Source of the DNA: Nonomuraea coxensis DSM 45129
GTDB lineage: Bacteria > Actinomycetota > Actinomycetes > Streptosporangiales > Streptosporangiaceae
DNA length: 64,000 nucleotides
Assembly (NCBI RefSeq): GCF_019397265.1
Contig: NZ_CP068985.1
Span: forward strand, 1,964,501 to 2,028,500
Reading direction: 5' to 3'
Shown here: positions 33,704 to 38,221 of the stretch, piece after piece
Layout of the letters: each line of letters starts with the position of its first letter
How positions within the stretch are numbered: the first letter of the stretch is position 1
Made by a program: the position numbers and the translations under genes
Notes under the pieces: generated by a model
Seen by the model: the letters and a program-made list of their open reading frames with translations, nothing else
Told to the model about the DNA's origin: nothing
Databases searched by the model: none

Positions 33704-35143
33704 TCAGGCCGTGGGCACGGGCTCCCGTAGCGGCAGGCGCACCTCGAACCATGTCTCGCCCGGCACCGAGCGCACCTTGATCTCGCCGCCGTGCCGGCCG
33801 GCCACGATGCGGTAGGAGATGTCCAGGCCGAGCCCCGTGCCCTCGCCCACGCTCTTGGTCGTGAAGAACGGCTCGAAGATGCGGTCCAGGATCGCCTCGG
33901 GCACCCCGTGGCCGGTGTCGCCGATCTCGACGATCGCCTCGTCCTCGTCGTGCGCCGTGCGGACGGTGAGGGTGCCGACGTCCTCCATGGCGTCGAGGGC
34001 GTTGTGGATGAGGTTCGTCCACACCTGGTTGAGCTCGCCGGCGTAGCAGGGGATGGGTGGCAGCGTGCGGTCGTAGTCAGTGACCACCGTGATGCCGGGC
34101 GGGATCTTGCCGCGGAAGATGGCGAGCGTGCTGTCGAGCAGCTCGTGCACGTCCACGTTCTGGAACGGCGCCCGGTCCATCTGGGAGTACTGCTTCGCCG
34201 AGCGGATCAGCGTGGTGATGCGCTCGGTCGCCTCGCCCACCTCGCTCAGCATCTGTGAGATCTCGACGGCCTCGGCCAGCCAGCGCACCGCCGCCGGGGC
34301 GTGCTCCTCGCCCACCTTCGCCCGGATCTTCTCCAGGTCCTCCGGCGAGAACTCGGCCTGGACCAGCGCGGGGGCGAGGTCCCAGGCGTCCTCGACGCCC
34401 AGCTCGTCCAGCGCCTCGCCGAGCTCGTCCTCGGCGTCGGAGATCTGCAGCGGCGAGCGCTGCGGCTGCTTGCCCAGCTTGTTCGTGCACGCCTCCTGCG
34501 CGTCGATGAGCGCCCGCAACTTCTCCGGCGGGATGCCGTCCTCGGCGAGCTGGGCGAGCTGCAGCCGGGAGTTCTTGATGAGCTGGCGCAGCTCGCCGAC
34601 GGCGCGTACGGCCGCCGCGGCCGGGTTGTTCAGCTCGTGGGTGAGGCCGGCGGTGATCGTGCCGAGCGCGGTCAGCCGCTGCCGCCGGTCGATGATCTCG
34701 CGCTGCATGCGCCCGCCCGACAGCATGCCGTCCAGCAGGTGCATCGCCATCGGGAACCATTCGGCCACGATGTAGGCGAACTTCCTGGCGGGCAGGATGA
34801 ACATCCGCGACGGGGCGGTGGCGCGCAGCGTGTGCTGGTAGGTCTGGGGGGCGCGGTCGCCGAGGTAGGCGCTGGTGGCGCCGCCGTACACGCCGGGCTG
34901 GGAGGCGCGCGGCATGGCGACGGTGCCGGCGCTGACCGTCTCGCTGATCATCTGGATCTCGCCCTCGATCAGCACGGCGAAGCAGTCGGCCGGCTCGCCC
35001 TGCCGGACGATGTCCTCGTCGGCCGCGAACGTGGCCATCCGGCCGCTGTCGGCGAGCTTGGTGAGCTGGGCGTCGGTCAGCCGCTCGAACAGGAAGAGCT
35101 TGCGCAGCTCGTCGATGTCGACGCGGGCGTCTGTCTCGGTCAC
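33704..35143 (-). CDS. Sensor histidine kinase with N-terminal cyclic-nucleotide-binding domain
   Basis: 479 residues. Residues about 10-135 form a cNMP-binding (Crp-like) domain (LFLFERLTDAQLTKLADSG and EDIVRQGEPADCFAVLIEGEI). The phospho-acceptor helix is LTAGLTHELNNPAAAAVRAV. The HATPase domain has NQVWTNLIHNALDAM, GDTGHGVP, IFEPFFTTKSVGEGTGLGL. No membrane segment, so it senses an internal signal. The gene overlaps the upstream response-regulator/reductase fusion by four bases, making a coupled pair. A regulator fused to a flavin reductase suggests redox input or output. Confidence 0.92.
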   Translation of the reverse strand: MTETDARVDIDELRKLFLFERLTDAQLTKLADSGRMATFAADEDIVRQGEPADCFAVLIEGEIQMISETVSAGTVAMPRASQPGVYGGATSAYLGDRAPQTYQHTLRATAPSRMFILPARKFAYIVAEWFPMAMHLLDGMLSGGRMQREIIDRRQRLTALGTITAGLTHELNNPAAAAVRAVGELRQLIKNSRLQLAQLAEDGIPPEKLRALIDAQEACTNKLGKQPQRSPLQISDAEDELGEALDELGVEDAWDLAPALVQAEFSPEDLEKIRAKVGEEHAPAAVRWLAEAVEISQMLSEVGEATERITTLIRSAKQYSQMDRAPFQNVDVHELLDSTLAIFRGKIPPGITVVTDYDRTLPPIPCYAGELNQVWTNLIHNALDAMEDVGTLTVRTAHDEDEAIVEIGDTGHGVPEAILDRIFEPFFTTKSVGEGTGLGLDISYRIVAGRHGGEIKVRSVPGETWFEVRLPLREPVPTA

Positions 35144-36789
35144 TGTTTCTCCAGGTAGCGGTGCACGAGCGCGACGGCCATCGCGCCCTCCCCGACGGCG
35201 GAGGCCACCCTCTTGATCGACTCGGCGCGCACGTCGCCCGCGGCGAACACCCCGGGCACGTTGGTCTCCAGGTAGTACGGCTCACGCCGCAGCGGCCAGT
35301 TGCGCGGCCGCCTGCCCCCCTGGACCAGGTCGGGCCCGGTGAGCACGAACCCGCGCGGGTCGCGCTCGACGGTCTCGCCCAGCCACGACGTGAACGGCTC
35401 CGCGCCGATGAACACGAACAGCCACTGGGCGTCGACCGTGCGCTCCTCGCCCCTGGTCGACAGCGTCAGCCGCTCCAGGTGCCCCGTGCCGCCGCCGCCG
35501 GCGACCTCGGTCTCCAGGTGCACCTCGATGTTGGGGATCGCGGCGATCTGCTCGATGAGGTAATGGGACATGGACTTCTCCAAACCATCACCCCTCACCA
35601 ACAAATGAACCTTGCTCGCGAATCCCGCCAGGTAGACGGCGGCCTGCCCGGCCGAGTTGGCCGCGCCCACGATGTGGACCTCGGCGTCGGAGCAGGCGGG
35701 CGCCTCGGTGAGGGCCGCGCCGTAGAAGACGCCGCGGCCGACGAACTCGTCCAGGCCCGGCGCGTCCAGCCGCCGGTAGGTGACCCCGGTGGCCAGGATC
35801 ACGGCGTGCGCGGCGATCTCGCCGCCGTCCTTGAAGCCGACCACGCGGGCCTGGCCGCGCGGCTCCAGCAGGGTCACCTTGCGCGCGGTCAGCAGCTCGG
35901 CGCCGAACTTCAGCGCCTGCCGCCGCGCCCGGTCGGCGAGCTGCTGGCCGGAGACGCCGTCGGGGAAGCCCAGGTAGTTCTCGATCCGGGAGCTCTGGCC
36001 CGCCTGGCCGCCCGAGGAGTGCGACTCGACGAGCACGGTGTTGAGCCCCTCCGAGGCGCCGTAGACGGCCGCGCCCAGCCCGGCGGGGCCGCCGCCGACC
36101 ACGATCAGGTCGTAGAAGTCGGTGGCCGGGGTGGTGGACAGGCCCACGGCCGTGGCCAGCGTGGCCTGGTCGGGCGACTCCAGCGTGGTGCCGTCGGTGG
36201 TGACCACGAGCGGCAGGTGGCAGCCCTCGCCGGCCGCCTTCACGAGCTGCGCGCCCTCCGGGTCCTCGGCGAGCATCCACTGGTACGGCACGTGGTTGCG
36301 GGCCAGGAAGTCACGCACCCGGTACGACTGCGCCGACCACCGGTCGCCCACCACCCGCAGCTCCGAGCGCTCGATCCGGTCGGTGCGCAGCCAGGCGTCG
36401 AGCTGCCCGTCGATGACCGGGTAGAACTTCTCCTCCGGCGGGTCCCACGGCTTGAGCAGGTAGTGGTCGAGGTCCACCACGTTGATCGCCTGGATGGCCG
36501 CCTCGGTGTCGGCGTAGGCGGTCAGCAGCACGCGCCGCGCGTACGGGTACATGTCCATGGCGGCTTCGAGGAACTGCACGCCGTTCATCTGCGGCATGCG
36601 GTAGTCGGCCAGGATGGCCGCCACGTCGTCGCCGCGCAGCCGCATCTCCTTGACCGCCTCGATGCCGTCGAGGGCGGTCTCGGCACGGACGATGCGATAT
36701 TCCTGGCCGTAGCGGCGTCGCAGGTCGCGCGCCACCGCCCGCGACACGCCCGGGTCGTCGTCCACGGTCACGATGACCGGCTTGTCCAT
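35140..36789 (-). CDS. Response regulator fused to thioredoxin-reductase-like flavoprotein lacking the CxxC
   Basis: 549 residues. Residues 1-125: receiver domain (VIVTVDDDPGVSRAVARDL, phospho-Asp in AAILADYRMPQMNGVQFLEAA, YLLKPW). Residues about 135-210: a glutaredoxin/thioredoxin-like segment. Residues about 225-549: FAD/NAD reductase of the thioredoxin-reductase family (DLIVVGGGPAGLGAAVYGASEG, VILATGV, GVFAAGDVRAESIKRVASAVGEGAMAVAL). The dithiol C-x-x-C region reads ALTEAPACSDAEVHIVG, so the redox pair is absent. It is predicted to be a phosphorylation-controlled flavoprotein. Coupled to the cNMP-domain kinase by ATGA. Confidence 0.9.
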   Translation of the reverse strand: MDKPVIVTVDDDPGVSRAVARDLRRRYGQEYRIVRAETALDGIEAVKEMRLRGDDVAAILADYRMPQMNGVQFLEAAMDMYPYARRVLLTAYADTEAAIQAINVVDLDHYLLKPWDPPEEKFYPVIDGQLDAWLRTDRIERSELRVVGDRWSAQSYRVRDFLARNHVPYQWMLAEDPEGAQLVKAAGEGCHLPLVVTTDGTTLESPDQATLATAVGLSTTPATDFYDLIVVGGGPAGLGAAVYGASEGLNTVLVESHSSGGQAGQSSRIENYLGFPDGVSGQQLADRARRQALKFGAELLTARKVTLLEPRGQARVVGFKDGGEIAAHAVILATGVTYRRLDAPGLDEFVGRGVFYGAALTEAPACSDAEVHIVGAANSAGQAAVYLAGFASKVHLLVRGDGLEKSMSHYLIEQIAAIPNIEVHLETEVAGGGGTGHLERLTLSTRGEERTVDAQWLFVFIGAEPFTSWLGETVERDPRGFVLTGPDLVQGGRRPRNWPLRREPYYLETNVPGVFAAGDVRAESIKRVASAVGEGAMAVALVHRYLEKQ

Positions 36790-36897: not shown

Positions 36898-37470
36898 ATG
36901 GGCACCCGCGAGCGCATCGTCGACGCCGCCGAGCAGGTCGTTCGCGAGTTCGGCATCGTGGGCGCGACCACCAAGCGCATCGCGTCGGCGGCCGGCTGCT
37001 CCGAGGCGCTGCTCTACAAGCACTTCCCGGGCAAGGAGTCGCTGCTGCTGGCCGTGCTGCTGGAGCGGCTGCCCGCGCTCGGTCCCGCGCTCACCCGGCT
37101 GCGGCTCGTGATCGGCTCCGGTGACGTGGCCGACCACCTCACCGTGTTCACGCTGGCCGCGCTGGAGTTCTACACGCGGGCGGCGGGCATCGCCGCGGGC
37201 GTGCTGGCCGACCCCTCGCTCACGGAGGGCTTCCGCGCCATGCTCGCGAGGAGCGGGTCGGGCCCGCACGTGCCGATCCAGGCGCTCGCCGAGGTGATCG
37301 CCGGTGAGCAGGCCCGCGACCGGATCGACCCGAAGCTCGATCCGGGCGCCGCGGCGTCCATGCTCATGGGCGCCTGCTTCCACCGGGCCAACCTGTCCTG
37401 CTACGTCGACCTGCCCGACGACGACGCCGTCTGGGCCGCCGCGATCGTGGGCACGCTGCTCAGGCGATGA
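36898..37470 (+). CDS. TetR-family regulator
   Basis: 190 residues. TRERIVDAAEQVVREFGIVGATTKRIASAAGCSEALLYKHFPGKESLLLAV is a clear helix-turn-helix. The C-terminal domain (LAEVIAGEQARDRIDPKLDPGAAASMLMGACF) is of the AcrR type without a diagnostic ligand motif. Divergent from the two-component/reductase operon and convergent with an SDR gene whose 3' end it overlaps by 11 bases. Target unknown; the repeat at 36807-36827 is one candidate. Confidence 0.87.
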   Translation: MGTRERIVDAAEQVVREFGIVGATTKRIASAAGCSEALLYKHFPGKESLLLAVLLERLPALGPALTRLRLVIGSGDVADHLTVFTLAALEFYTRAAGIAAGVLADPSLTEGFRAMLARSGSGPHVPIQALAEVIAGEQARDRIDPKLDPGAAASMLMGACFHRANLSCYVDLPDDDAVWAAAIVGTLLRR

Positions 37471-38221
37471 CGCGGCTCTCGCCGCCGTCGACCAGCAGCG
37501 ACACCCCGTTCACGAACGAGGCCCGCTCGCTGGCCAGGAACGCCACGACGTCCCCCACCTCCTCGGGCCGCCCGATCCGGCCCACCGGCACACTCCTGCC
37601 ACGCTCGGCGAGCTTCTCCTCGCCGCCCGACGTCTGGCGCAGCCGGTCGGTGTCGATCGGGCCCGGCAGCACGTTGTTGACCAGCACGCCGTCGCCGGCG
37701 ACCTCGCGGGCGAGCGTGCGCACCACCCCGGCCACGGCCGAGCGGGTGGCGTTCGACAGGGCCAGGCCGTCCAGCGCCTCGCGCACCGACCGGCTGGTGA
37801 CCGTCACGATCCGGCCCCAGCCGCGGGCGCGCATCTCCGGCAGCACGGCGTGGATCAGGCGTACGGTGCCGAGCAGGTTGCGCTGGACGGCGACGTCCCA
37901 GTCGGCGAGGCTCGTGTCGGTGAAGCGGCCGGGCGGCGGGCCGCCCGCGTTGGCGACCAGGATGTCCACCGGGCCGAGCACGTCGCGGGTCTCCTCGACG
38001 ACGCGCCGGGCGGCCGACGGGTCCTCCACGTCGGCCAGCACGGCGTGCACGACCTTGCCGAACTCCTGCAGTTCCACGACCGCGTCCGCGAGCCGCTCAG
38101 GAGTGCGGCCGACGACGCAGACGTCGCAGCCCTCGCGCGCGAGGCTCTTGGCCGCGGCGAGTCCGATGCCCGCGCTGCCACCGGTGACCAGGGCGACCTT
38201 GCCCGAGATGCCGAGATCCAT
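37460..38221 (-). CDS. SDR-fold oxidoreductase with non-canonical active site
   Basis: 253 residues. The cofactor motif is intact (ALVTGGSAGIGLAAAKSLARE) and the family motif VANAGGPPPG present. The catalytic region reads VTVTSRSVREALDGLALSNATRSAVAGVVRTLA, where Tyr-x-x-x-Lys is replaced by Ser-x-x-x-Arg. C-terminal VNGVSLLVDGGES is standard. It belongs to the SDR subgroup in which the YxxxK pair is degenerate, so the activity is uncertain. Located nine bases from the sigma factor gene; it is the last gene of a leftward series. Confidence 0.8.
   Translation of the reverse strand: MDLGISGKVALVTGGSAGIGLAAAKSLAREGCDVCVVGRTPERLADAVVELQEFGKVVHAVLADVEDPSAARRVVEETRDVLGPVDILVANAGGPPPGRFTDTSLADWDVAVQRNLLGTVRLIHAVLPEMRARGWGRIVTVTSRSVREALDGLALSNATRSAVAGVVRTLAREVAGDGVLVNNVLPGPIDTDRLRQTSGGEEKLAERGRSVPVGRIGRPEEVGDVVAFLASERASFVNGVSLLVDGGESRVIA

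Follow-up and report, generated by a model that had tools for sequence, protein, structure and literature searches.

A dithiol-free receiver, glutaredoxin-like and thioredoxin reductase-like fusion encoded beside a soluble cNMP-fold histidine kinase in Nonomuraea coxensis

In a 64,000-nucleotide stretch of the Nonomuraea coxensis DSM 45129 genome (hereafter the window), a cytoplasmic histidine kinase gene is paired with a gene for a receiver fused to glutaredoxin-like (Grx) and thioredoxin reductase-like (TrxR) domains, from which both redox-active dithiols are missing. We propose, with a probability of roughly 0.5, that the pair forms a kinase-gated flavoprotein system, in which electrons would reach an external acceptor by a path that involves no dithiol relay.

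The gene pair and its phosphorylation modules

The host genome is a single contig of 9.07 Mb. Both genes lie on the minus strand and overlap by 4 bp, at the positions given in the initial annotation, and their features are listed below. Conservation is expressed over receiver fusions (126), kinases (129) and signalling-type relatives (155), the last of which are not 155 independent cases, as 80 of them came from a search favouring close sequences.

33704-35143, minus strand: gene for the soluble cNMP-fold sensor histidine kinase, 479 aa
33725-34036, minus strand: HATPase_c domain, residues 370-473 (Pfam)
34313-34528, minus strand: helical insertion between the two DHp helices, residues 206-277 (AlphaFold, alignment)
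34637-34639, minus strand: predicted phosphorylated His169 in THELNNP (129 of 129 kinases)
34724-35116, minus strand: cNMP-fold sensor domain, residues 10-140, canonical Glu and Arg missing (Pfam cNMP_binding)
35140-36789, minus strand: gene for the receiver, glutaredoxin-like and TrxR-like fusion, 549 aa
35143-36120, minus strand: TrxR-like FAD/NAD(P) domains, residues 224-549 (Pfam Pyr_redox_2, structure match)
35557-35598, minus strand: residues 398-411, VRGDGLEKSMSHYL, replacing HRRxxxR; R399, M407, S408, Y410 and L411 in 155 of 155 relatives
35692-35694, minus strand: Cys366 (120 of 126 receiver fusions)
35710-35721, minus strand: GAAL, residues 357-360, at the position of the lost CxxC (alignments)
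36145-36363, minus strand: glutaredoxin-like domain, residues 143-215, CPDC changed to SAQS (alignment with Grx(CPDC)-TrxR relatives)
36376-36789, minus strand: receiver domain, residues 1-138 (Pfam Response_reg)
36604-36606, minus strand: predicted phospho-acceptor Asp62 (126 of 126 receiver fusions)

The kinase had been described as carrying a Crp-like sensor and no membrane segment, and both points agree with the Pfam cNMP_binding assignment and with the maximum 19-residue hydropathy of the two proteins (1.04 and 1.36), which indicates no membrane-like stretch in either. The sensor domain matches cNMP domains in the PDB and the regulator DNR. The canonical Glu and Arg of the phosphate-binding cassette are replaced by Ala89 (Glu in 9 of 126 kinases) and Tyr102 (Arg in 3 of 126), so that usual cyclic-nucleotide binding, and cAMP as the ligand, are doubtful. 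In the catalytic part the phosphorylatable His and the N, G1, F and G2 boxes are present, with Pfam HisKA matched only at an E-value of 0.049; 128-129 of 129 kinases keep His169, N381 and the glycines that bind the nucleotide. The AlphaFold model of the kinase (mean pLDDT 75.8, with the His169 region itself of low confidence) places the DHp helices at residues 131-201 and 282-323, split by the helical insertion of about 75 residues. Two variant arrangements were seen among the relatives: on a Nostoc plasmid (L117) the nearby kinase has a receiver replacing the cNMP domain, and in L121 (693-5043, minus strand) three cNMP-type kinase genes lie in a row behind one receiver-TrxR fusion gene.

The receiver residues D10, D11, D62, T90 and K113 are conserved in all 126 receiver fusions, with D12 being either D or E. 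In 122 of these 126 a kinase is encoded on the same strand no more than 3 kb away, a pairing far beyond chance. Nine relatives with the same Grx-TrxR core carry decayed receivers (L133, L134, L135, L138, L143, L144, L157, L158 and L159), eight of them having lost T90 and seven D62; a tenth row of this class, L104, proved to be a genuine receiver truncated at the end of its contig. None of the eight pseudo-receiver relatives that could be assessed has a kinase gene nearby. The intact receiver goes with a kinase, and the pseudo-receivers serve as a natural control. Position and motifs together suggest that phosphotransfer from the kinase to the fusion is cognate.

The best-matching segment of the fusion protein is identical to that of Nonomuraea wenchangensis. 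A sigma-70-like promoter was looked for at the locus and none was found. The neighbouring RibD_C gene was considered as a partner and rejected, being present in only 2 of 80 loci. All 33 Nonomuraea loci compared, together with two from Planomonospora, have a gene for an SDR-family oxidoreductase close to the fusion (37460-38221, minus strand, in the window), and in most cases it lies directly upstream on the fusion's strand; here and in some other genomes a TetR gene (36898-37470, plus strand in the window) sits between the two.

Lost dithiols and the flavin site

The initial annotation had given the partner of the kinase a receiver, a glutaredoxin-like segment and a flavin reductase, with a flavoprotein rather than a DNA-binding domain as the output and no CxxC. 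This architecture stands, including the absence of CxxC, the only cysteines of the protein being C190 and C366. The proposed dithiol region, APACSDAE, was misplaced. Alignment with the host's own TrxB (WCATCDGFF, L002) and with CxxC-type relatives (FCATCDGPFYK) puts the dithiol positions at G357 and L360 of YGAAL; APACSDAE spans residues 363-370, downstream of this true CxxC-equivalent site, and was rejected as a modified active site. Its Cys366 lies six residues past the CxxC site, at a Lys/Arg position of the CxxC-type relatives. The glutaredoxin-like segment is a true homologue of the Pfam glutaredoxin domain, which Pfam confirms in the relative L150, and it has SAQS in place of CPDC, thus neither CxxC nor CxxS. 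With only C190 and C366 available, the protein has no conventional internal dithiol.

The loss extends across the family. The TrxR cysteines are absent at both positions in 155 of 155 signalling-type relatives, and 148 of them have no Grx cysteine at either position; all four cysteines are present in 7 of 7 CxxC-type Grx-TrxR fusions. The lone row with a single TrxR cysteine is the TrxB of the host, whose site is divided by a gap in the alignment. A tree computed after removal of the trait columns sets the dithiol-less rows apart by a branch with an SH-aLRT of 99, and among them receiver and cNMP forms are largely separate. A single ancestral loss of both dithiols is likely rather than proven, because the outgroup consists of one long branch.

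Every one of the 155 relatives keeps the GD motif and the glycines for binding FAD, and FAD binding by the fusion is strongly predicted from these invariant motifs. Nicotinamide binding is uncertain, because 123 of 126 receiver fusions have GxAxxA in place of the dinucleotide motif GxGxxA, and the NADPH motif HRRxxxR is gone, VRGDGLE standing in its place in the fusion. On the alignments, a new conserved site stands in for the old NADPH motif, and the invariance of R399, M407-S408 and Y410-L411 argues for kept, altered chemistry and not for drift. AlphaFold gives the fusion a pLDDT of 68, a confidence too low for positioning Cys366 or the receiver with respect to the FAD.

Proposed mechanism and competing explanations

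In the mechanism that we propose, the cytoplasmic kinase would sense a signal, probably not a cyclic nucleotide, through its cNMP-fold domain, autophosphorylate on His169 and phosphorylate the fusion in turn on Asp62. The FAD and NAD(P) domains may then be repositioned or assemble differently, and the flavoprotein would accept electrons from a nicotinamide nucleotide, or from some other donor, and deliver them to an external acceptor. The internal dithiol relay of thioredoxin reductases is not available to it, since both the Grx CPDC and the TrxR CATC have been lost family-wide. TrxR-like ferredoxin/flavodoxin NADP+ reductases (FNR) use this fold without dithiols, which makes a dithiol-free flavin path in the fusion plausible. 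The fusion itself was rejected as a member of that group, as it matches TrxR at an E-value of 2e-45 versus 4e-14 for FNR. In favour of this mechanism are the kinase gene beside nearly all receiver fusions, the intact catalytic residues, the kinase-less pseudo-receivers, the invariant FAD motifs and new motif, and the contrast between signalling-type relatives and CxxC-type fusions in their TrxR cysteines. A sister form adds to these, since its cNMP domain sits directly on the same Grx-TrxR core and so couples a like input to an identical output. Against it stand the uncertain nicotinamide binding, the weak model of the fusion, and the neighbourhoods of the relatives, in which no acceptor gene was found consistently adjoining the pair. 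Active catalysis, its gating and the acceptor are conjectural.

The main rival, which we regard as rather unlikely, is a pseudoenzyme or sensor in which the TrxR-like part would bind FAD, perhaps together with a nucleotide, without net catalysis. Such a protein could read the redox or nucleotide state, or act as a phosphorylation-controlled platform for partners such as a zf-UBP protein. The loss of both dithiols and the altered NAD(P) motifs would fit it, as would the zf-UBP genes that adjoin some members (15 of 92 receiver fusions and 4 of 8 cNMP-fused members); however, the invariance of the FAD motifs and of the new residues over several phyla is beyond what a bare scaffold would need. Less probable still is a single-thiol enzyme, in which Cys366 would replace the dithiol by forming a mixed disulfide with a partner or a low-molecular-weight thiol. 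Cys366 is found in most receiver fusions and in 10 of 16 cNMP-fused members, some of which are adjoined by thioredoxin genes, but it is absent from 6 of 126 receiver fusions (one from Deinococcus) and from most pseudo-receiver members. Its alignment past the CxxC, at a Lys/Arg position, also speaks against this role, and a single-cysteine mechanism is weakened by the relatives without it. That the fusion is an ordinary thioredoxin reductase carrying a regulatory domain is very improbable: although the closest sequence and fold matches are thioredoxin reductases, and databases name the sister proteins thioredoxin-disulfide reductase, neither redox domain has a CxxC, and the fusion scores 218.7 against the cut-off of 343.45 for TIGR01292 (thioredoxin reductase equivalog), which the host's separate TrxB, with CATC and HRRDELR, passes at 397.5; we rejected this assignment on the missing dithiols.

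If the gated flavoprotein is correct, phosphorylation would connect two-component sensing directly to redox metabolism. A broader and more tentative reading, to which we give somewhat less than even odds, is that an entire Grx-TrxR fusion enzyme gave up both of its dithiol centres and evolved into a signalling flavoprotein free of dithiols, with three N-terminal controls, namely a kinase-receiver pair, a directly fused cNMP domain and a kinase-less pseudo-receiver. Receiver phosphorylation would in that case switch flavin electron transfer, and the output of the two-component system would act on redox chemistry itself. With receiver, pseudo-receiver, cNMP-fused and CxxC-type forms all occurring in nature, the question can be put to the test. 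In many genomes these genes are named thioredoxin reductase or FAD-dependent oxidoreductase, yet their sequences rule out the usual way of carrying out that reaction.

Known classes, relatives and gene neighbourhoods

Response regulators joining a receiver to a TrxB domain already form a class in the literature (REC-TrxB; Galperin 2018). Among the two-component systems of Streptomyces coelicolor, a review lists TrxB as an effector class, together with the pair SCO7297/SCO7298 (PMC9739842), and a survey of cyanobacteria counted one TrxB-class regulator (PMC9953108). SCO7298 has the same receiver and TrxR-like domain, with the gene for its kinase SCO7297 adjacent; the Nonomuraea fusion likewise has an intact receiver joined to a TrxR-like domain and an adjacent kinase gene, and the comparison brought out no essential difference from the class. 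Since the class has been catalogued, the combination of receiver and flavoprotein is not peculiar to the Nonomuraea genome. In their accessible portions, the REC-TrxB papers list the class only and do not mention missing dithiols or a Grx-like domain. A literature search, with most subscription journals outside it, found no functional study of the class and no mention of the missing dithiols. The architecture is known, whereas no description seems to exist of the loss of both dithiols or of the branches with a fused cNMP domain or a pseudo-receiver.

Low-Mr TrxB shares its fold and FAD motifs with the fusion, which lacks CxxC and HRRxxxR. The top Foldseek match, AhpF, also combines a thioredoxin-fold N-terminal part with a TrxR-like core, but it works by dithiols, of which the fusion has none. 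Grx(CPDC)-TrxR(CATC) fusions have the same domain order minus the receiver, keep both dithiols and fall outside the signalling clade; those identified (L150, L151 and L163-L167) come from other Actinomycetota classes. Within the clade, the sister form is represented by a protein that NCBI names cyclic nucleotide-binding domain-containing thioredoxin-disulfide reductase (WP_260640578.1). It has the same dithiol-less Grx-TrxR core and differs in that the cNMP domain is fused to it directly, without a receiver or a nearby kinase; trxA and zf-UBP genes adjoin some members, in the order trxA, zf-UBP, cNMP-Grx-TrxR.

The pair ranges over Actinomycetota, Deinococcota, Cyanobacteriota and Burkholderiales, and a member of the wider family occurs in 95 of 396 sampled genomes of the host's phylum (about a quarter). 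In Streptomyces and Tsukamurella a gene for a small zf-UBP protein follows the pair, and in Deinococcus, Gloeothece and Caballeronia the pair occurs without it; a zf-UBP protein as an obligatory third component was rejected, given its presence near so few receiver fusions. On Streptomyces and Rhodococcus plasmids (L120, 1-6299; L171, 1-6242) the genes DnaJ, CbpM, ClpB, trxA and zf-UBP, in this order, immediately precede a dithiol-less cNMP-Grx-TrxR gene, apparently forming a chaperone/redox stress island. The zf-UBP, trxA and chaperone contexts hint at protein-quality or oxidative stress and do not identify the acceptor. The host genome carries two zf-UBP genes elsewhere (L162, 1414-1698, and L161), the former adjoining a gene for an antiporter-like membrane protein.
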